A DNA stretch of 64,000 bases from Acidobacteriota bacterium (GCA_016184455.1 JACPCS010000109.1:1-64000), one strand, 5' to 3'; counted from the first letter of the stretch, positions 50,749-63,415 are shown. Numbers and translations: made by a program. The notes: generated by a model not told the origin, from the sequence alone.

Positions 50749-51222
50749 ATGAGCGATCCAGTACGTGAACAACTGGCGCGTCTCCTCGATTGGGAAGAGG
50801 CGCACGTCGGATTCGATCGAGCCGTCGACGGCATTCCGGCGGCGATGCGCGGCGCGCACGCCGGCGGCTTCGAGCACACGCCGTGGCAGCTCCTCGAGCA
50901 CATGCGGATCGCGCAGGACGACATCCTCGACTTCTGCGTCAACGATCACTACGCGCAGACCATGCAGTGGCCGGACGATTACTGGCCCGCGAGCCCTCAG
51001 CCGCCGAACGACGCGGCGTGGCGGAAGAGCGTGGACGCGTTCACGCAGTCTCGCGAGAAGCTCAAGGCGCTTGCACGCGAGGTCAAGGACCTCACCGAGC
51101 CGGTGCCGACCGGCACCCGCAATCAGACGTATCTCCGTGCGATGCTGCTCGTGGCCGATCACGCGGCGTACCACGTCGGTCAGCTTGTCGCGGTCCGGCG
51201 GGCGCTGGGAATCTGGACATAG
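50749..51222 (+). CDS. DinB-like putative metalloenzyme
   Basis: A 157-residue four-helix bundle of the DinB/YfiT class: [40 protein letters not shown] and [20 protein letters not shown] hold the three His (H-H-H metal site) seen in this family. Some members are thiol transferases; the reaction here is unknown. GGAGGC precedes ATG 50749, 11 bases after the flavodoxin-like gene. Confidence 0.88.
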
Positions 51223-51291
51223 GGCTATCGCTACGACGCGGTCGTCCTGGACGTGATGCTGCCCGGTCGCTCCGGCTTCCAATGGTCATGA
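51223..51291 (+). pseudogene. 23-codon relic of a response regulator
   Basis: Directly after the DinB stop, the frame reads [17 protein letters not shown], the phospho-acceptor Asp region of a CheY/OmpR receiver domain, then stops. Nothing else of the gene remains. An imperfect dyad, GGTCAT-G-ATGACC, overlaps its end about 70 bases before the redox operon. Confidence 0.55.
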
Positions 51292-51362: not shown

Positions 51363-52445
51363 ATGCCCCGCGTGGCGCGCGAACGTCTCAAAGCCGGGGT
51401 CTCCGGGCTGCTAACCAGCGGCGCCCTCGCGATCCTGATCGTCATCGGCTCCCGCAACCTCCAGCACTTCGACGCGGCGCTCGTCGGCTACACGTTCGCC
51501 ACGCTGTTTGCCGTCTTCGGCATCACCTATCGATACGCGATGTGGCTGCAGCGGCCGCCCACGCACATGTACTGGTGGCGCGGCTGGCAGGTCTTCACGA
51601 ACCCCCGCTGGATCGGCCGCAATCTCCTCGAGTTCCTGCGGCGCTTCTGTCTCGAGTTCGCGCTCAACCGGTTCATCTTCCGCCGCGGCGTCGAGCGCGG
51701 GCTCGCGCACTGGTCGATCATGTGGGGCTGCATCCTGGCGGCGGCCATCACGTTTCCCCTCGTCTGGGGATGGATTCACTTCAGGACGGTGCCGGGGCAG
51801 ATCGACGTGTACCGGACGTACGTGTTCGGGTTCCCGGTGCACGAGTTCCACATCGACTCGATCACCGCCTTCATCGTGTTTCACGGGCTGGTCTGGGCGT
51901 CGGTGCTCGTCATCGGAGGCGTGATGCTCGCCTTCCGGCGCCGGATGGTCGACTACGGGGCCGTCAGCGTGCAGCAGTTCGGGCAGGACATGCTGCCGCT
52001 CATCCTGCTCTTCGCGATCAGCCTCACCGGCCTGCTGCTGACCGCCAGCTATACCTGGATGCGGGGCTACGCCTACGACTTCCTCGCCATCCTCCACGCC
52101 GGCGCGGTCATCGTGACGCTGCTGTACCTGCCGTTCGGCAAGTTCTTCCACATCTTCCAGCGTCCCGCCCAGCTCGGCGTCAGCTTCTACAAGGAAGCGG
52201 GCGCCCGGAGCGAGCAGGCGCACTGCGCCCGGTGCCAGCGCCCGTACGCGTCGGCGGCGATGGTGCGCGACTTGATCACGGTGGAGCGGGAGCTCGGCTT
52301 CTCCTACGACATGGAGACCGCGCGACGGGCCGCCCACTATCAGGAGATATGTCCCCGCTGCCGGCGTGCGATGTACGGCCTGGCACAGGGCGCCGCCTGG
52401 CGTGGCCACGCAGGTGTCGCGCCGGACGGCGGCGGCGGCAGCTGA
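51363..52445 (+). CDS. NarI/DsrM-like membrane cytochrome b subunit with zinc-ribbon tail
   Basis: A 360-residue membrane protein with about six helices. His-bearing segments ([58 protein letters not shown] and FFHIFQRP) fit b-haem ligation as in NarI, HdrE and DsrM subunits that take electrons from quinol. The C-terminal 90 residues are cytoplasmic and carry two CxxC pairs ([18 protein letters not shown]), a rubredoxin-like or zinc ribbon that could dock the catalytic subunit. First gene of the redox operon; the start is followed by a basic N-terminus ([10 protein letters not shown]). Confidence 0.8.
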
Positions 52446-52455
52446 CGACCGCACG

Positions 52456-54726
52456 ATGGCGACGCTCCCAGCCGACGATCGCGCCATCACGGCCCGGTTC
52501 GGACCGCACCGCTCGGTCATGACGGGCGTGAGGCTCTCGACGAGCGTCGAGCCCGAGCGGCTCGTCAAGACGCACTGCTGCTTCTGCGGACAGCAGTGCG
52601 GCCTGCAGCTCAAGGTCCGCGACAATCAGGTCATCGGCTTCGAGCCGTGGGAAGAGTTCCCGTTCAACCGCGGCATGCTCTGTCCGAAGGGCGTGAAGCG
52701 GTACCTGCAGGGCGCGCATCCGGATCGCCTCACGACGGCGCTCCGCCGCGACCCGGCGGCGCCCCACGGCTTCAGCCCGATGAAGTACGAGGAGGCGATC
52801 GCGACGGTCGCCGGGGAGATCGATCGCATCCAGCGCACGTACGGCCCTCCGGCGGTGGCCCTGCTCGGCGGCGCGAGCCTCACCACCGAGAAGACGTACC
52901 TCCTGGGGAAGTTCGCGCGCGTCTGCCTGCGCACGCCGCATATCGACTACAACGGCCGGCTGTGCATGGTCAGCGCCGGCGCCGCCAACAAGAAGGCGTT
53001 CGGCATCGACCGCACGACCAATCCGTGGTCGGACATGGTCGGGACCGACGTGATCTGGGTGGCGGGATCGAACGTCGCCGAGTGCTCGCCGATCACGACC
53101 AACTACCTCTGGCAGGCGCGTGAGCAGGGCGCTCGCATCATCATCCAGGATCCGCGGATCACGCCGGCCGCACGAACGTGCGATCTGTACCTCCCGATTC
53201 GGCCGGGGCGCGACGCGGCGCTGTTTGCCGGCGTCCTGCAGCTCATGATCGAGCACGACTGGCTCGATCACGCGTTCATCGAGCAGTCCACCGTCGGCTT
53301 CGACCAGCTCGCCTCCTACTGCCGTCAGTGGACGCCCGCGCGGACGGCGGAGGTCACCGGCGTCCCCGAGCGGTCGATCCGCCAGGCCGCTGAATGGTGG
53401 GGCACGGCGAAGGCCAGCTTTCTCTTTCACGCCCGCGGCATCGAGCACCATTCCAACGGCGTCCAGAACGCGCTCGGGACGATCAACCTCGTGCTCGCCT
53501 CCGGCCGCATCGGCAAGCCGAAGTGCGGCTACGGCACCATCGTCGGACAGGCGAACGGGCAGGGCGGACGCGAGCACGGCCAGAAGGCCGATCAGCTTCC
53601 GGGCTGGCGCGACATCACCAATCCGGACCATCGGCGGTACATCGCCGGCGTGTGGGGGATCGACGAGAAGGATCTACCCGGCCCGGGCGTGGACGCGTAC
53701 GAGCTGTTCCGGAAGATCGATGCCGGCGAGATCAAGGCGCTGCTGACGATCTGCTTCAACCCCAAGGTGTCGCTGCCCGACAGCACGTTCGTGGCGCGCT
53801 GCCTGGAGAAGCTCGAGTTCTACACCGCGATCGATTTCTTCCTCAACGATACGGCGCGTCACGCCGACGTCGTGCTCCCGGGAAGTCTCCACGAAGAAGA
53901 CGAGGGGACGGTCACCCAGGTGGAGTGCCGCGTCATCAAGATCAACAAGGCCGTCGATTGTCCCGGAGACGCCCGGCAGGACTGGCGCATCATTCAGGAC
54001 ATCGCCCGTGCGCTCGGACGCGAGCGCGGGTTCACCTTCGCGAGCCCGCGCGAGATCTTCGACGAGCTGCGCGCGGCCAGCAAGGGCGGCGTCGCCGACT
54101 ACTCCGGGATCACCTACGAGAAGATCGAGCGGCGGATGGGGGTCTTCTGGCCCTGCTACAGCGAGGACCCGGAGACCGGCCGCCCGATCGATCATCCGGG
54201 CACGCCACGCCTGTTCGAACGGGGCAGCTACAACCCGGTCGCGCGCGGCACAGGGCCTTTCTACTTCCCCGACGGCAAGGCGCGCTTCAACGTCGCCGAG
54301 TACCGGCCGCCGGTGGACGACGCCGACGGCGAGTATCCGCTGTATCTGACGACGGGACGAGTCGTGAGCCAGTTCCTCTCGGGAACCCAGACGCGCCGCA
54401 TCGGTCCCCTGGTCGAGCAGTACCCGGAGCCGCGGATCGAGATGCACCCGCGGCTCGCCGCCAGGCTCGGGATTGCCGACGACGACTGGGCGGTCGTGGA
54501 GACGCGGCGCGGCGCGATCACGCTGCGCGCGATGGTGGTGACCACGATCCGGCCGGACACCGTCTTCGTGCCGTATCACTGGCCGGGGGAGAAGAGCGTG
54601 AACCGGGTGACCGTGGCCGCTCAGGACCCGATCAGCAAGATCCCCCAGTACAAGGTCTGTGGCTGCCGCGTGCGCAAGGCCGGCGGTCCGCCGGCATATG
54701 CGGCCATCCTCGAGCCGCAGCAGTAG
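52456..54726 (+). CDS. Molybdopterin oxidoreductase, NapA/NasA-like catalytic subunit
   Basis: A 756-residue DMSO-reductase-superfamily enzyme. Residues 41-76 hold a [4Fe-4S] motif (CCFCGQQC ... MLCPKG). [18 protein letters not shown] places Cys170 where NapA/NasA enzymes have the molybdenum ligand, which favours a nitrate-reductase-like chemistry. Bis-MGD motifs follow ([53 protein letters not shown]). There is no Tat signal, so it works in the cytoplasm. It lies between the cytochrome b and ferredoxin genes. Formate or other oxyanion substrates cannot be excluded. Confidence 0.85.
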
Positions 54727-54730
54727 CGTC

Positions 54731-55411
54731 ATGGCCAAGCCGGACCACCTGCATTTCTTCATCGATCCGAACCGCTGCATCGGGTGCCAGGCGTGCGTCC
54801 AGGCCTGCACGGAATGCGACACGCACCGCGGCGAGTCGATGATTCACCTCGAGTACGTCGAGCGGGCGCGGAGCGTGCAGACGGTGCCGGTCGTGTGCAT
54901 GCACTGCGAGCAGCCGACGTGCGCGGAAGTGTGCCCGGCCGACGCCATCAAGCGCACGGGCGACGGTGTGGTGCAGTCGGCGCGCAAGCCGCGCTGCATC
55001 GCGTGCGGCAACTGCGTCGTCGCCTGCCCGTTCGGCGTGCCGGAGCTCTACAACGACCGGCAGATCATGATGAAGTGCGACATGTGCTACGACCGGACGA
55101 CCGCGGGCAGGAAGCCGATGTGCGCCACGGTCTGCCCGAGCCAGGCGCTCTTCTTCGGCACGCGCGAGCAGATCGAGCAGCTTCGACCCCTGTCGGTGCC
55201 GGTGAACCGATTCCAGTTCGGCCATCAGGTGATTTCGACGCGCGTCTTCACGATGATGCCGCGCGAGGTGGCGAGGCGGCAGCCGTGGCTCGACGTGACG
55301 GCCGCCATGGACGAGCGGCCGCCCGAGCGCGCCGTGATGCTGCGCGTGCTGCCGTCCACGCCGGAGGCGACGGCCGACGTGGGCGATCCGTACGCCGAGG
55401 TCCTCATATGA
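54731..55411 (+). CDS. Four-cluster ferredoxin, NrfC/HycB-like electron-transfer subunit
   Basis: A 226-residue protein with 16 Cys in four CxxCxxCxxxC-type groups: [45 protein letters not shown] and [20 protein letters not shown]. It should relay electrons between the Rieske or cytochrome subunit and the molybdenum enzyme. Starts four bases after the catalytic subunit, stop overlaps the Rieske start (ATGA). The C-terminal 60 residues lack motifs. No Tat signal, so cytoplasmic face. Confidence 0.9.
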
Positions 55412-56076
55412 ACGACGACGTCCAACGCGAACGTGCAGAGGCGGATGATTCGCGGGCGCGAGTCGACCCGCGGATCGACACGCCCGGGCGGGAAGGGCTT
55501 ACCGGGACGGCGCCCGCCAACGTGTACCGGCGCCTGCCCGATGCCGAGCAGATCACGATCCCGCCGGACTGGCGGTCGATGGAGGCGCAGCCGCCCTGGC
55601 GCGGCGACTTCCCGATCGACTGGCCGCAGGACCAGTACGTCGAGCGGCGCGACTTCGTGAAGTTCATGGTCCTGACGAGCCTCGCCCTGACCGTGGGGCA
55701 GTTCTGGATTGCCGCGCAGAACTGGTGGCGGCGGCGCCGCGGCGTGCCGGCGATTCGGCGGATCGCCGCTCTCGATCAGATTCCCGCCGGCGGGCTGCTG
55801 ACCTTCACCTATCCGGGACCCCTGGACGACTGCGTGCTCGTGCGCGCGCTCGACGGGACGCTCGTCGCGTACAGCCAGAAGTGCACCCATCTGTCGTGCG
55901 CCGTCCGGCCGCAGGTCGAAAGCGGCATGATTCACTGTCCCTGCCACGAGGGCTATTTCGACCTGCGGTCAGGACGTCCGGTGGCTGGCCCGCCGCGCCG
56001 GCCGCTCGACGTCGTGCGTCTCGAGGTGCGTGGCCGCGACGTCTATGCCATCGGCATCGAGGCACGGACGGTCTGA
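55408..56076 (+). CDS. Rieske [2Fe-2S] protein with membrane anchor
   Basis: The 222-residue protein has a long polar N-terminus, then [20 protein letters not shown] near 90, a twin-arginine-like signal/anchor, and a Rieske domain with CTHLSC and CPCHEGYFD (C-x-H-x16-C-x2-H), typical of quinol-oxidising or ferredoxin-type Rieske centres. It would sit outside the membrane, anchored by its helix. Overlaps the ferredoxin by four bases. Its presence with a Mo enzyme and cytochrome b suggests a bc-like electron path. Confidence 0.9.
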
Positions 56077-56077
56077 G

Positions 56078-56314
56078 ATGGCTGATTACCGCCCCTTCAG
56101 CCGTCAGCAGCGAACGATCGTGATCCACGCGATGCTGGCGTTCGTCCTCATCATCGTCCTGCTGCAGCTCTGGCTGCTGACCGCGACGATGAACGCCTAT
56201 CTGGGCGGCGACGAGTCGGTGATCTGGCCCGCCGCGGGCGCCAGCCTGCTCTGCCTGCTGCTGAACGCGGGTCTGCTCTGGTACCTGTATTACCTCGATC
56301 GCGTGCGGCAATGA
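56078..56314 (+). CDS. Small two-helix membrane protein of the redox operon
   Basis: A 78-residue protein with two helices, TIVIHAMLAFVLIIVLLQLW and AAGASLLCLLLNAGLLWYLY, separated by a short loop. I think such proteins accompany Rieske operons (possibly DUF6755, from memory). It is one base from the Rieske stop, overlaps the transporter start (ATGA) and probably stabilises the complex. No cofactor-binding residues beyond single His. Confidence 0.75.
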   Translation: MADYRPFSRQQRTIVIHAMLAFVLIIVLLQLWLLTATMNAYLGGDESVIWPAAGASLLCLLLNAGLLWYLYYLDRVRQ

Positions 56315-57366
56315 GTGCGGGCCCTGCGGCGGCTGCCCGCCCGGCCGCCGCGACGATGCACCCGGCGTCGTTCGCCCTCGTGATGGCGACCGGGATCGTC
56401 TCGATCGCCTGCCATCTCCTCGGCGTCGCGTGGCTGGCGTCGCCCATGCTCTGGCTGAACGTGGCGTGCTACGTCGTGCTGTGGGGCCTCACAGGGCTGC
56501 GCGCCGTGCGCTTCCGGACCGAGCTGCTGGCCGACGTCGCCCACCACGGCCGCGCCGTCGGCTTCTTCACCACGGTGGCGGCAACCTGCGTGCTGGGCAG
56601 TCAGATGTGGGTCATCGCCAACGCGTGGACGGCCGCCGCCGCGCTGTGGGTGTTCGGGATTCTGCTGTGGGCGCTGGTGACCTACACGGTCTTCACGGTG
56701 CTGACGGTCAAGAGCACGAAGCCGTCGCTCGAAGAAGGGATCAACGGCGGCTGGCTCGTGGCCGTCGTCGCGGCGCAGTCGGTGGCGGTGCTCGGCGCGC
56801 AGCTGGCGGCCGGATTCGGAGCGGCCGCGCCCGACGTGCTCCTGTTCTGCCTCGGTCTGTGGCTGGGCGGCGGCATGCTCTACATCTGGATCATCTCGCT
56901 CATCTTCTACCGATACACCTTTTTCGTGATGAGCCCCACGGACCTGGCGCCGCCGTACTGGATCAACATGGGCGCCGTCGCGATCTCGACGCTCGCGGGA
57001 ACGATGCTGATTGCCGCGGCGCCGGCGTCGCCGCTGCTGACCGAGCTCCTGCCGTTTCTGAAGGGGTTCACGCTGCTGTTCTGGGCGACCGCCACGTGGT
57101 GGATTCCGATGCTCGTCGTGCTCGGCATCTGGCGGCACGTGTACCGCCGATTCCCGCTGCGGTACGACCCGCTCTACTGGGGTGCGGTCTTCCCCCTGGG
57201 GATGTATGCCGTCTGTACGTTCCGACTCGCGCAGGCGATCGAGGCGCCGATTCTCCTGGACGTCTCTCGTGTGTTCTTGTACGTCGCACTCGCCGCGTGG
57301 GCGCTGACGCTGGCGGGTCTGGTCCGTCGCCTCGCCACGGGCGCCAGGCGCGGCCTGGGGCTGTAG
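56311..57366 (+). CDS. TehA/SLAC1-family (TDT) anion channel or exporter
   Basis: A 351-residue protein with about ten membrane helices and the family signature: MHPASFALVMATGIVSIACH at the start, FALGxxLW-like segments, and FFVMSPTDLAPPYWINMGAV, AVFPLGMYAVCTFRLAQ. Family members carry small anions (nitrate, chloride, sulfite, C4-dicarboxylates, tellurite). The gene is last in the redox operon, so it may move the substrate or product of the Mo enzyme; nitrate/nitrite fits. Its 3' end overlaps the convergent NnrS-like gene by 193 bases. Confidence 0.88.
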   Translation: MSAGPAAAARPAAATMHPASFALVMATGIVSIACHLLGVAWLASPMLWLNVACYVVLWGLTGLRAVRFRTELLADVAHHGRAVGFFTTVAATCVLGSQMWVIANAWTAAAALWVFGILLWALVTYTVFTVLTVKSTKPSLEEGINGGWLVAVVAAQSVAVLGAQLAAGFGAAAPDVLLFCLGLWLGGGMLYIWIISLIFYRYTFFVMSPTDLAPPYWINMGAVAISTLAGTMLIAAAPASPLLTELLPFLKGFTLLFWATATWWIPMLVVLGIWRHVYRRFPLRYDPLYWGAVFPLGMYAVCTFRLAQAIEAPILLDVSRVFLYVALAAWALTLAGLVRRLATGARRGLGL

Positions 57367-58625
57367 AGCACGCCGATGTGGTCGACCCCCGCAACACCGA
57401 CGGCGACGAACAGCGACGCCGCTCCCAGTGCCACGAGCCGCGCGGATTCGAGCGCGATCCCAGCGGCCAGTGCTGGAATCCCGGCGACCCATCCGGCCAG
57501 TACGATCGCCTGCAGGCTGCGGTCGCGCATCCGGTGCGGCGACGGCGGCGCGACTTCGTAGCCGCTTCGCGCGTACGCCCAGCACCAGGTCGCCATCGGC
57601 AGCAGCCGGATCTCCATCGCGACGACCATCTGCGCCAGGAATCCGAGCAGTCCCACCACGCCGTACGCTGCCGCGGCGCGCAGCGACTCGGCCGACATCG
57701 GGGCAACCAGCAGACCGACTCCGAGCACGAGCGCCGCCACCAGACAGACCCCGGCGCAGGCGGCATGCGCGACCGCGAAGTCGAACCGCGGCGCGGCGGC
57801 CGGCTTCGACACCGGGTGGCGGAGCATCCAGACGACATGGCCGAGAAAGGCGGCGAGTCCGGCGACGATGAGCGCACCGAACAGGGCTGACCACGCGCTT
57901 TGCATCAGGAGCGCGGCGAAGAGCCCGAGGACACCCGCTTCGAGCAGAATCGCGCTGGCGTACATGGATGGTCCGGTGGGCATCTTCGAGGGCAGAACCA
58001 TCGAGACCAGGCGATAGCCGATGCCGACCACCATCATCGTCGCCCAGCCGATCGCGGCGAGATGGGCGTGTGCGAACACGTTCGACAGCACGAATCCCGG
58101 CAGCAGCGGCGCGGCCTTGTGAACGGCGATGAGCACGCCCATCGTCGCGGCCAGCCAGAAGTTCGCGCACGCGAGGATGATGTGCAGTCGAACGGCCGCA
58201 GGAATCGGCGCTCGCCTGACGCTGACCGCGATGCGCGCGGTCATGTAGAACGTGCCGGCCGTGATCGTGCCCGCCGACCACGCCATCCCCGAGTACTCCT
58301 CGATCCAGAAGTGCCCGACCATCCCGACGAGGCCGATCAGTCCGAGCGCGTACGCGGCGTAGTCCAGGCGGCGCACGCGCATCTCGATCCGGAGCGCCAG
58401 CGGTCCGACGATGAAGAACGCGCCGAAGATCGAAAAGGTGATCCAGCCGAGCGTGACCAGATGGACGAGCGCCAGCATCCACGAGTGGTAGAAGAAGCCC
58501 GCGACCGCGCGCGGCCACGCGAGCCCAAGGGCGCACGCCAGCGCCAGCGCCGCGTGCGCCGTGCCGAGGTAGAGCAGCGGCATCGTCCGGGCGATCGAGG
58601 TGATCGTGCCTCCCGTCCTTGCCAT
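57174..58625 (-). CDS. Haem-copper oxidase subunit I/NnrS-like membrane protein
   Basis: A 483-residue protein with about 12 helices. His-bearing motifs resemble haem/copper ligands: FFYHSWMLALVHLVTLGWIT, VGHFWIEEYSG, RLHIILACANFW, VFAHAHLAAIGWATMMV. Families with this layout include cbb3 subunit I, NO reductase and NnrS proteins linked to nitric oxide resistance. The last 65 residues (from GVLYSPRPRLAPVARR) are basic and read antisense to the TDT gene, so they may be a run-through after loss of the normal stop. ATG 58625 is used; ATG 58583 is possible. Convergent with the redox operon. Confidence 0.75.
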   Translation of the reverse strand: MARTGGTITSIARTMPLLYLGTAHAALALACALGLAWPRAVAGFFYHSWMLALVHLVTLGWITFSIFGAFFIVGPLALRIEMRVRRLDYAAYALGLIGLVGMVGHFWIEEYSGMAWSAGTITAGTFYMTARIAVSVRRAPIPAAVRLHIILACANFWLAATMGVLIAVHKAAPLLPGFVLSNVFAHAHLAAIGWATMMVVGIGYRLVSMVLPSKMPTGPSMYASAILLEAGVLGLFAALLMQSAWSALFGALIVAGLAAFLGHVVWMLRHPVSKPAAAPRFDFAVAHAACAGVCLVAALVLGVGLLVAPMSAESLRAAAAYGVVGLLGFLAQMVVAMEIRLLPMATWCWAYARSGYEVAPPSPHRMRDRSLQAIVLAGWVAGIPALAAGIALESARLVALGAASLFVAVGVAGVDHIGVLYSPRPRLAPVARRRTRPASVSAHAASATYKNTRETSRRIGASIACASRNVQTAYIPRGKTAPQ

Positions 58626-58688: not shown

Positions 58689-59868
<1,180 letters not shown>

Positions 59869-59919
59869 GGCATCGGATCGCGCCTCCGAATGGCTCGAAT
59901 CGACGCTGGAGGGATCGCC

Positions 59920-60357
59920 ATGGCGGAACGTACTGAACGCGCGGTGATCAACGATCTGATCGAAACCTGCCGCGATGCGGAACGGGGGTTTCGGATGGCG
60001 GCCGAGCACGTCAACACCCCGGAGATGAAGGGGCTGTTCGTCCGGCTCGCGCAACAGCGACATGAATTCGCGGACGCGCTGCTGCCATACGCCCATCGGC
60101 TGGGCGGTGCGACCGACGGCGACGGGACAGGGATCGCGGCGGTGCACCGCACCTGGATGCAGTTCAGAGCGCGGCTGGCGTCGAATCCCGAGCGCGCGAT
60201 GCTCGAGGAAGCTCTGCGCGGCGAGCGCCATGCCCTGGCCGTCTACGAGGAAGCCGTGCACGATGTGCTGCCGCCGGATGCGCGGGAGCTGGTCGAAACG
60301 CAGGACCTCGGAGTTCGGGTTGCCGGGCGGCTCATGGCAGACCTGGCAACGCACTGA
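59920..60357 (+). CDS. DUF2383-type ferritin-like helical protein
   Basis: A 145-residue four-helix bundle (DUF2383/PA2169 family): RAVINDLIETCRDAERGFRM, FVRLAQQRHEFADALLPYAH, LEEALRGERHALAVYEEAVH. Ferritin-like His/Glu pairs are visible but a complete metal site is not proven. GGAGGG is well placed before ATG 59920. It stands 51 bases after the P-II gene and 64 before dabA. Role unknown; relatives are linked to stress. Confidence 0.8.
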   Translation: MAERTERAVINDLIETCRDAERGFRMAAEHVNTPEMKGLFVRLAQQRHEFADALLPYAHRLGGATDGDGTGIAAVHRTWMQFRARLASNPERAMLEEALRGERHALAVYEEAVHDVLPPDARELVETQDLGVRVAGRLMADLATH

Positions 60358-60421
60358 CGTCTCACGATCGAAAAGCGACGACGAGGGCAGCATAGAATGT
60401 TTCTGTACTCACAAGTCGCTG

Positions 60422-63415
60422 ATGCACCGCAGTTCCGCCCTGCCTGAGGGCAATCCAGCCGACAATCCGCTGGCGCACGTCATTGACGAGCTCGCGCACC
60501 TGCTGCCCGCGCAGGGGCCGATCAGCATCTTCATCCACCACAACACGCTGCACGCGTTCGAGCACCTGCCGTTCGAAGAGGCGGTCGAGCACGCCGCCGA
60601 GCGCCTCGGACGCGAACCCTTTCTGTCGGAGTCGCGCTACCGCGAGAAGCTGGCGTCGGGCCGCATTCGCGCGAAGGATGTCGACGCTCTGCTGCGGGAC
60701 GAGCTCGGCCCGAGCGCCACCGACGATGTGGCGGGCGTCGGACCGCGTGTCGATCTCTGGCGCGCCGTGGTGCTGCACGGCATTCCGGCCGCGACCGGGC
60801 GCGAGCTCTCGTGGATCCTCGAGGAGACGGACGCGCTCTCCCGGTTTCGCTCAGACCTGCCGGCCCAGGCCCGGTCGGCACTGGCCGCCGTGCGCGAGGC
60901 GGACGATCGCGCGGGCGAGCGGGGCGCGGTGCACCGCCTGTGGGACGCCTGCGTCGCGGCCGTCGGCCGTGCCGGCGAACGGCCCGCTCCGGCGGCGGAC
61001 ATCCCCATTCGTCACCGGGACCACCTGCTGGCGGTGTACGCCGTCGACACCGACGCCTGGATCCATCCCACGCTCATTCGATTCCTCGCCGGCTATCTCG
61101 ATCAGGGCCTCGCGCACTGGTCGATGCCGGCGCGGCAGCTCGGCATCCACGGCTGCTTCCTCGAGATCTACCGCACGTCCGTGGCGGGGCAGTGCGGCCC
61201 GTGGGCGCGTACGTTCCCCCGCATCATCGAGGAGGATCATGCGGCCGGCCGCACCGCGCTCGGCTCGATCGCGCATTCGCTGGCCGAGCTCGGCGTCGGC
61301 GACGACGAGCTCGCGGACTATCTGAGCGCGGAACTGCTGGCGCTGCGGGGATGGGCCGGCATCGTGCGTCAGATCGAAGAGCGGCCCGACCGCGTCCCTG
61401 TACGCGATCTCACGGTGACGTTGCGCGGATACCTGGCGGTACGGCTGCTCTGCGAGCGCGCGGCGCTCGAGGAAGCGGCGCGCCGGGTGTCGTTCGACGG
61501 CCCGTTGTCGGAGCTGCGCGCGTGGACGGGCAACCGGCTGCCCGTGCCGGCGCCTCCGACGACGATCGACCGCGCATGGCGGCTCTTTCATGTGGCGCAG
61601 CTCTGCGGCCTCGACGTCTCGATTGTCGAACAGTGGTCGCTGCGCCACGTGGCGGAGCTCGAAGCCGAGCTCGAGCGGATCGACGACCTGCGGCGGCGCC
61701 GGATCCTGCACCAGGCGTTCGAGCGCGCGATCCGTCATCGCCTGTACGACGCGCTGGCGCACCACGTCCCGCAATCGCCGTCCGGGCCGCCAGCGTTCCA
61801 GGCCGTGTTCTGCCTCGACGAGCGCGAGGAATCGATCCGTCGGCATCTGGAGGAAGTCGAGCCGGCGTGCGAGACGTGCAGCACCGCCGGCTTCTTCAAC
61901 GTGGCGATGTACCACGAGAGCGTGACCGACGCCCATCCACGTCCGCTCTGCCCGGTGGCGATTCGTCCCGACCATTACGTCGGGGAAATCGAAACCGACA
62001 GCGATCGCCTCGTACGGCGCTCGCAGCGTCTGCACCGGCGCGCCGCCGGCTTCCTCGGCTACAACGTGCACCTGGGCAGCCGGCTGCCGGTCCGCGGCGC
62101 CGTGCTGATGACCGCGTTCGGCTGGCTCGCGCTCGTGCCGCTCGTCCTCCGCGTCGTCTTTCCCTGGCTCTCGTCACGGTTGGGTGTGATGCACGAGACG
62201 ACGGTCGGCGGTGGCCCAACCCGCCTGCAGGTGGATCGCGAAGACGCCGCGCCGCCGATCGGGAAGTACGCGGGCTTCACCGTGCGGGAGATGGCCGGTA
62301 TCGTGCGCCGCGTGCTCGAAGACACCGGCATCCGCGGTCGCCTCTCGCCGCTCGTCCTCGTCATCGGACACGGATCGATCAGCCTCAACAACCCTCACGA
62401 GTCGGCGCACGACTGCGGGGCGTGCGGCGGCGGACGCGGCGGACCGAACGCGCGGGCCTTCGCGCAGATGGCCAACGACGCTCGCGTGCGCGAGGTGCTG
62501 GCGGCCGAGGGGCTGACCATCGACGCGGCCACGTGGTTCGTCGGCGCGCAGCGCAATACGTGCAACAACGACGTGACGTTCTTCGACGAGGCTCTCGTGC
62601 CGGCGGCCGTGTGGCCGCTGTTCGAACGCGCGGTCGTCGCCCTGGAGACGGCCAGGCGCCGCGAGGCGCACGAACGCTGCCGCCGGTTCGATGCCGTCCC
62701 GCGCTGGTATCCGCCGGCCGCGGCGCTCGCGCACGTCCAGGGGCGCGCGGCCGACCTCGCGCAGCCGCGCCCGGAGTACGGCCATGCCACCAACGCGTTC
62801 TGCATCATCGGCCGGCGGACGCGGACGCGCGGCGTGTTCCTCGACCGTCGCGCGTTCCTCGTCTCCTACGATCCGTCGCGCGACGACGATGGCGCGATCC
62901 TGGCCCGGATCCTCGCCGCCGTGGTGCCGGTCGTCGCCGGGATCAGTCTCGAGTACTACTTCAGCTACGTTGACCCGACCGGGTACGGCTGCGGCACGAA
63001 GCTGCCGCACAACGTGACCTCGCTCCTGGGGGTGATGGACGGCGCGCAGAGCGATCTGCGCACCGGCCTGCCGTGGCAGATGGTCGAGATCCACGAGCCC
63101 ACGCGACTGGCCATCGTCGTCGAGGGGCCGCGGGACCGCGTGTCGCGTGTCGTGCGGGCCAACCCGAGCATCGATCGGCTCGTCCGACACCGCTGGATCT
63201 GGCTCGCCTGCCTCGATACGGACTCCGGCGCCGTGTGGGAGCTTCGGTCGACGGGCTTCGTCGCGCACACCCCGGAACAGCCACTTCCCGTGGTCGTGGG
63301 CGACTCCGCCGCGTGGTACCAGGGCAAACGCGGGTTTCTGCCTCCGGTGGCGATCGTGCCAGGGTCCGCGGCCGCCTCCGACGAGCGGCTGGTGCGGGTG
63401 CCATGGTCGGGATGA
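60422..63415 (+). CDS. dabA: Inorganic-carbon accumulation subunit DabA (DUF2309)
   Basis: The 997-residue protein resembles beta-carbonic anhydrase; with DabB it hydrates CO2 in the cytoplasm, driven by ion flow, to trap bicarbonate. Zn ligands match Halothiobacillus DabA by motif and spacing: CLDEREESIRRHLEE (Cys464, Asp466), and IGHGSISL / DCGACGGGRGG with His650 and Cys665, 15 residues apart as in H524/C539. LPAQGPISIFIHHNTLHAFE near residue 30 is family-typical. The stop overlaps dabB by four bases. In a non-phototroph it may serve anaplerosis or autotrophy; no Rubisco is in the window. Confidence 0.93.
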   Translation: MHRSSALPEGNPADNPLAHVIDELAHLLPAQGPISIFIHHNTLHAFEHLPFEEAVEHAAERLGREPFLSESRYREKLASGRIRAKDVDALLRDELGPSATDDVAGVGPRVDLWRAVVLHGIPAATGRELSWILEETDALSRFRSDLPAQARSALAAVREADDRAGERGAVHRLWDACVAAVGRAGERPAPAADIPIRHRDHLLAVYAVDTDAWIHPTLIRFLAGYLDQGLAHWSMPARQLGIHGCFLEIYRTSVAGQCGPWARTFPRIIEEDHAAGRTALGSIAHSLAELGVGDDELADYLSAELLALRGWAGIVRQIEERPDRVPVRDLTVTLRGYLAVRLLCERAALEEAARRVSFDGPLSELRAWTGNRLPVPAPPTTIDRAWRLFHVAQLCGLDVSIVEQWSLRHVAELEAELERIDDLRRRRILHQAFERAIRHRLYDALAHHVPQSPSGPPAFQAVFCLDEREESIRRHLEEVEPACETCSTAGFFNVAMYHESVTDAHPRPLCPVAIRPDHYVGEIETDSDRLVRRSQRLHRRAAGFLGYNVHLGSRLPVRGAVLMTAFGWLALVPLVLRVVFPWLSSRLGVMHETTVGGGPTRLQVDREDAAPPIGKYAGFTVREMAGIVRRVLEDTGIRGRLSPLVLVIGHGSISLNNPHESAHDCGACGGGRGGPNARAFAQMANDARVREVLAAEGLTIDAATWFVGAQRNTCNNDVTFFDEALVPAAVWPLFERAVVALETARRREAHERCRRFDAVPRWYPPAAALAHVQGRAADLAQPRPEYGHATNAFCIIGRRTRTRGVFLDRRAFLVSYDPSRDDDGAILARILAAVVPVVAGISLEYYFSYVDPTGYGCGTKLPHNVTSLLGVMDGAQSDLRTGLPWQMVEIHEPTRLAIVVEGPRDRVSRVVRANPSIDRLVRHRWIWLACLDTDSGAVWELRSTGFVAHTPEQPLPVVVGDSAAWYQGKRGFLPPVAIVPGSAAASDERLVRVPWSG

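Follow-up and report, generated by a model that had tools for sequence, protein, structure and literature searches.

In the respiratory nitrate reductase NarGHI, a cytoplasmic molybdenum (Mo) enzyme is combined with a four-cluster ferredoxin subunit and the quinol cytochrome b NarI, and the transporter NarK is linked. The assimilatory nitrate reductases of the NasC/NarB type have a Cys-Met catalytic site, and the ones in our comparison have genes for siroheme nitrite reductase close by. Here we analyze six coupled genes at positions 51363-57366 of a 64,000-nucleotide stretch of DNA from an Acidobacteriota bacterium (GCA_016184455.1 JACPCS010000109.1:1-64000; hereafter the window), which encode a cytochrome b, a Mo enzyme, a ferredoxin, a Rieske protein, a small membrane protein (DUF6755) and a predicted SLAC1/TehA-family channel. 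It is probable that this operon encodes a quinol-dependent, membrane-bound nitrate reductase with a cytoplasmic catalytic subunit, in which TehA, or NarK in other genomes, passes nitrate/nitrite. The best reading is that, next to Nar, Nap and Nas, it represents a separate kind of nitrate reductase, the third way of building a quinol-dependent enzyme of this sort in the cytoplasm.

With NarGHI the operon has in common a predicted cytoplasmic Mo enzyme, a four-cluster ferredoxin subunit and, in other genomes, a linked NarK, and its cytochrome b may be of the NarI kind, but its 756-residue catalytic subunit is NasC-like, with a Cys at the ligand position, and is not NarG; it has no NarJ, it adds a Rieske protein, DUF6755 and a four-cysteine tail on the cytochrome b, and TehA can replace NarK. 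The whole would function in the manner of NarGHI, but because it lacks the catalytic subunit that defines Nar, we file the operon as a variant of respiratory nitrate reductase and not as Nar. The NasC/NarB enzymes are the nearest kin of its Mo subunit and share the Cys-Met site, but the operon has a membrane cytochrome b and a Rieske protein, and no linked nitrite assimilation gene. In Paracoccus, the Rieske-type, NirD-like protein NasG feeds electrons to NasC, as related in PMC3475470; the Rieske protein of the operon also accompanies a NasC-like enzyme, but is membrane-anchored, carries a twin-arginine translocation (Tat) motif and is AioB/bc1-like. The Nar enzymes of haloarchaea and Methanoperedens are linked to Rieske/cytochrome b genes as well (PMC4683180), but they are NarG-type, lie outside the membrane and are accompanied by a bc1-type cytochrome b (PMC4683180). 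Arsenite oxidase, AioBA, likewise pairs a Mo enzyme with a Rieske protein bearing a Tat motif, and AioB has the nearest Rieske fold, but the Mo subunit of the operon is not AioA, and a cytochrome b and a four-cluster ferredoxin are added. The channel belongs to the same Pfam family as the SLAC1/TehA anion channels, but here it replaces NarK in a nitrate reductase operon, and we found no description of such a replacement. A literature search, with subscription journals mostly outside its reach, turned up nothing on DUF6755, nothing on these genes in combination, and no paper that brings together nitrate reductase, Rieske, NrfA, Acidobacteria and NarK. Two candidate precedents were set aside: Thermogutta is described with NarG, and the Rieske/cytochrome b of Caldithrix stands with Nap. 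Nitrate-reducing acidobacteria have been reported that hold nasA-like genes only and no known dissimilatory nitrate reductase (PMC5900883), and in acidobacterial genomes from Danish treatment plants narGHI and napAB were counted as the dissimilatory nitrate-reduction routes (PMC8100337).

Results

A preliminary description, made from the sequence of the window, had placed Cys170 of the Mo subunit in the Mo ligand motif, and this residue does align with Sec140 of Escherichia coli FdhF. It is followed by Met171, and a Met follows the Cys in 97/97 operon members, as in Nap and Nas enzymes. The column of FdhF Arg333 holds Thr or Val in all 97, again as in Nap/Nas, whereas the formate dehydrogenase set has Arg in this column and mostly Cys/Sec-His at the ligand site. 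The top NCBIfam family for the subunit was NasC, at 778 bits and below the cut-off of 1100; formate dehydrogenase alpha scored 545 bits, also under its cut-off, and the scores for NarG (54 bits, cut-off 1084), for NapA (231 bits, cut-off 930.55) and for AioA (126.5 bits, cut-off 359) all fell short. No signal peptide or transmembrane segment was predicted at the start of the subunit, where NapA has its own Tat signal. In a quick tree, in which some outgroup branches are long, the operon Mo proteins form one clade (SH-aLRT 99), sister to the NasC enzymes found beside nitrite reductase (support 98), and on the nitrate reductase side (NasC/Nas/Nap) of the split from the formate dehydrogenases (support 99). 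Among the sister NasC genes, three lie near NIR_SIR genes and one is beside NirBD in Deinococcus gobiensis. A firm grouping with formate dehydrogenases, named beforehand as the outcome that would count against a nitrate reductase, was thus not what the phylogeny gave, and we reject a formate dehydrogenase identity of the subunit on the active-site residues together with the tree. The earlier view that the system is not a standard Nar, Nap, Nas or Fdh agrees with these scores and with the position of the clade beside NasC.

The gene order is conserved far beyond chance. Among 199 genomes from the phylum of the host, about 30 contain a full-length relative of the cytochrome b, with the order cytochrome b-Mo-ferredoxin-Rieske in nearly all. 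The nearest relatives that bear a name are Acidobacteria. A scan of genome contigs gave at least 502 relatives, of which the best 80 belong to Planctomycetota (32), Acidobacteriota (23), Myxococcota (15), Chloroflexota (4), Armatimonadota (2) and single others; at least seven phyla are represented (Acidobacteriota, Planctomycetota, Myxococcota, Chloroflexota, Armatimonadota, Gemmatimonadota and Deinococcota). The block cytochrome b-Mo-ferredoxin-Rieske-DUF6755 recurs at about 100 loci. In a set of 107 loci, which samples the nearest relatives and so overstates uniformity, and in which two pairs are the same contig, the Mo gene follows directly on the cytochrome b gene in 101, the ferredoxin gene takes second place in 88 and the Rieske gene third place in 84; DUF6755 was called in 61. 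The conserved order that the preliminary description had proposed to look for is therefore found. The second outcome that it had named as refuting, a lack of conservation of the Rieske and channel genes with the Mo gene, did not occur: Rieske is present at nearly every locus, and the channel is present at about half and is replaced by NarK at most others.

On a Deinococcus plasmid the block recurs in the same order, flanked at either end by NarK genes. Its cytochrome b (L146, 7889-9001) is publicly annotated as a major facilitator superfamily (MFS) transporter, a label probably carried over from NarK-cytochrome b fusion proteins (L and G numbers are our labels for loci and genomes). At two loci, L045 (G167) and L107, the cytochrome b stands without a Mo gene; that of L045 is fused to NarK, and L107 joins the cytochrome b, a piece of the Rieske gene, DUF6755 and TehA in the way that a deletion of Mo and ferredoxin would leave them.

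TehA and NarK tend to replace each other: 34 loci have TehA only, 25 NarK only, one has both and 12 have neither (Fisher 2.6e-9, before relatedness is removed). NarK occurs in one of two places: in the slot of TehA, at about 4.8-5.6 kb from where the cytochrome b gene starts, or upstream, and in seven loci the upstream NarK and the cytochrome b form an in-frame fusion. The NarK family is TIGR00886, which the fusion at L040 matches at 215 bits. TehA changes 14 times on the Mo tree, and several of the loci with neither gene belong to a genus with NarG about 14-17 kb away. A PDB sequence search with TehA gave no match. The preliminary description saw the channel as a possible exchanger of substrate and product; the replacement by NarK, itself a matter of comparison, fits this role, and transport by TehA is what we infer from it.

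NrfHA adjoins the operon at L042, L044, L055 and Lacipirellula L099, and in Lacipirellula limnantheis the run reads cytochrome b-Mo-ferredoxin-Rieske-DUF6755-NarK-NrfH-NrfA. Recurrent flanking genes encode RIC, hemerythrin, CRP-type and Rrf2 regulators and Mo-cofactor proteins; siroheme nitrite reductase is not among the flank families, and no further gene that could be NarJ occurs in the six-gene operon or as a conserved cluster in its relatives. NrfA is present in 21/30 operon genomes and in 32/169 others (genus-level odds ratio 6.5, p 0.0013), whereas NIR_SIR has no association with the operon across the 199 genomes (odds ratio 0.8, p 0.69), being present in 11/30 operon genomes, including that of the host, and absent from 19/30. 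In 21 operon genomes neither NarG nor NapA scores above the cut-off, and 14 of these genomes hold NrfA; the operon enzyme is therefore the best candidate for the source of nitrite there. NirK was rejected as a downstream enzyme, being present in only 1/31 genomes.

The cytochrome b matched no Pfam family, gave only weak TcuB/QmoC matches in NCBIfam and, as a profile, found no match in a PDB sequence search. Six transmembrane segments are predicted, with both termini inside. Across 108 aligned members H116, H245 and H263 do not vary, H174 is kept in 102 and H139 in 96, and the four C-terminal cysteines are conserved. H245 and H263 are spaced by 18 residues, as are H187 and H205 of NarI. An AlphaFold2 model of the protein (pLDDT 88) matched EtfD best (Z 12.1) and E. 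coli NarI at ranks 2-9 (Z 10.0-10.6); as modeled, the protein resembles NarI rather than bc1.

The ferredoxin subunit is DmsB/FDH-beta-like and has no signal or anchor. In the Rieske protein the RR pair is present in 91/91 members, mostly within the motif [AS]RR[DE]FxKF, and two cysteines, Cys164 and Cys179, are invariant and coincide with the disulfide pair of bc1. The closest solved fold is that of AioB (Z 16.7). In bc1, a Ser and a Tyr raise the potential of the Rieske cluster; all 91 members have Gly and Phe in their place, and a lower potential is therefore predicted. The cluster is probably on the periplasmic side. A cytoplasmic Rieske protein of the NasG/NirD type was considered and rejected, as NirD entries reached a Z of about 12 against 16.7 for AioB, and both the Tat motif and the disulfide pair agree with a Rieske protein that is exported. 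DUF6755 is a two-transmembrane hairpin with Q30, W32, P51 and S56 invariant, and its role is presumably structural. The cytochrome b, Rieske protein and NapA/NasA-like Mo enzyme of the preliminary description are all present; the first resembles NarI, the second is AioB/bc1-like and the third is NasC-like.

Discussion

The catalytic site and the tree support the earlier proposal of a membrane-coupled cytoplasmic nitrate reductase, to which a respiratory role may be added. The NarI-like cytochrome b would oxidize quinol close to the periplasmic face of the membrane, and electrons would pass through two b hemes to the cytoplasmic face, then by way of the ferredoxin subunit, with its four [4Fe-4S] clusters, to the [4Fe-4S] cluster of the Mo subunit, where nitrate would be reduced to nitrite at the Mo-bis(molybdopterin guanine dinucleotide) center (Mo-bisMGD), with Cys170 as ligand. 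TehA, or NarK in other genomes, would let nitrate in and/or nitrite out, and in many hosts the periplasmic NrfHA would then make ammonium. The membrane Rieske protein, its cluster probably periplasmic, may be a further relay from quinol, or from a periplasmic partner, to the cytochrome b.

Several observations weigh against this proposal. The Z values of the NarI matches to the cytochrome b model are within the range the tool warns of for helical proteins and only a little above unrelated TRPV and G protein-coupled receptor rows near 9; a Foldseek search with the same model gave no significant match (best E 0.02), and the cytochrome b of L048 lacks both candidate partners of H245. Our NarI reading does not depend on Z alone, since topology, His spacing and rank agree with one another. 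The charge bias at the Rieske transmembrane segment (N-flank -1.4, C-flank +2.6) opposes the Tat orientation. When relatedness is removed, the mutual exclusion of TehA and NarK is weaker, with 5-6 independent pairs opposite and 0-1 the same (median p 0.06), which is consistent with replacement but short of proof. Lastly, the genome of the host, a 4.7-Mb draft in 162 contigs, also encodes NarG, NapA and a further Nas-like Mo enzyme (G000:C155, C81, C122), and no NrfA or NirK was detected in it; the operon may be used differently there than in its relatives.

The same parts could be assembled otherwise. If the Rieske Tat signal exported a unit of Mo, ferredoxin and Rieske subunits, as AioA is exported with AioB, nitrate would be reduced in the periplasm. 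We consider this unlikely, even though the invariant RRxFxK-type motif and the disulfide pair, the closeness to AioB and the lack of signals on the Mo and ferredoxin subunits themselves would all suit it: a periplasmic enzyme would need neither NarK nor TehA, which are linked, NarK even being fused to the cytochrome b, and in the NarI-like topology both the C-terminal ribbon and H116/H263, the invariant heme ligands, face the cytoplasm. The NasC enzymes, sister group of the Mo subunit, are moreover cytoplasmic. There is also a slim chance that the complex is a bc1-like/NarI-like hybrid in which quinol oxidation is split, one electron passing via the periplasmic Rieske protein to a c-type partner such as NrfHA and the other via the NarI-like hemes to the cytoplasmic NasC-type nitrate reductase.

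Other alternatives concern the purpose or the substrate of the enzyme. A membrane-linked assimilatory nitrate reductase would have the same chemistry and quinol donor, with nitrite passing to siroheme nitrite reductase for nitrogen supply. The NasC kinship of the Mo subunit, in both tree and family score, and the NIR_SIR genes of some operon genomes speak for it; but it is NrfA and not NIR_SIR that is associated with the operon, the flanks hold NO/nitrite-stress and NrfHA genes, and two operon genomes (G125 and G086) have separate NasC genes near NIR_SIR, which makes this rather improbable. It is very improbable that the operon encodes a formate dehydrogenase bound to the membrane or that its substrate is a different oxyanion such as chlorate, selenate or arsenate. 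The PDB sequence neighbors of the Mo subunit are mostly formate dehydrogenases, and the score for the alpha subunit of that family is 545 bits, but the formate dehydrogenase active-site residues are absent throughout and the tree excludes the group. The linked genes are those of nitrate/nitrite transporters and NrfHA, and none of them relates to a different oxyanion.

If the operon does encode a quinol-dependent cytoplasmic nitrate reductase, a widespread respiratory enzyme has so far been read as assimilatory, given generic names or left unnamed, in carriers that include major groups of soil and water bacteria. The operon would then provide an explanation, open to testing, for the acidobacteria that reduce nitrate with nasA-like genes only (PMC5900883), would change metagenome estimates of nitrate respiration and ammonification, and would give SLAC1/TehA a bacterial role in nitrate/nitrite movement.

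Operon coordinates and neighboring sequence

All six open reading frames of the preliminary description were found where it had placed them. Gaps of 10 bp and 4 bp precede the Mo and ferredoxin genes and one of 1 bp precedes DUF6755, while the Rieske and SLAC1 genes each overlap the gene before them by 4 bp; because no gap or overlap exceeds 10 bp and all run in one direction, we regard their coupling as real. The Mo gene has an alternative ATG at 52519.

Table 1. Genes of the operon, with positions in the window
Gene product	Position	Strand	Features
NarI-like cytochrome b	51363-52445	+	360 aa, 6 transmembrane segments, C-terminal 4-Cys ribbon
Mo-bisMGD catalytic subunit	52456-54726	+	756 aa, nitrate reductase type; Pfam Molybdopterin, Molydop_binding, Fe4S4
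Ferredoxin subunit	54731-55411	+	Pfam Fer4_11; 16 cluster cysteines = four [4Fe-4S]
Membrane-anchored Rieske [2Fe-2S] protein	55408-56076	+	Pfam Rieske; AioB/bc1-like, RRxFxK Tat motif, disulfide Cys pair
DUF6755 two-transmembrane protein	56078-56314	+	Pfam DUF6755
SLAC1/TehA-family anion channel (predicted)	56311-57366	+	Pfam SLAC1, 154.7 bits (cut-off 27.9)

The gap before the cytochrome b gene codes, at 51220-51290 (+), for 22 residues that belong to a receiver domain of the response-regulator type and seem to be what is left of a gene. Convergent with tehA, and overlapping its end by about 190 bp, an open reading frame at 57174-58625 (-) encodes a many-helix membrane protein that by eye resembles NnrS or heme-copper oxidase subunit I; it has no match in Pfam or NCBIfam, and a 49% identical relative lies near the cytochrome b of L045. 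Further downstream, at 59539-63412 (+), genes for a P-II protein, a DUF2383 protein and the inorganic-carbon transporter subunit DabA stand in a row.

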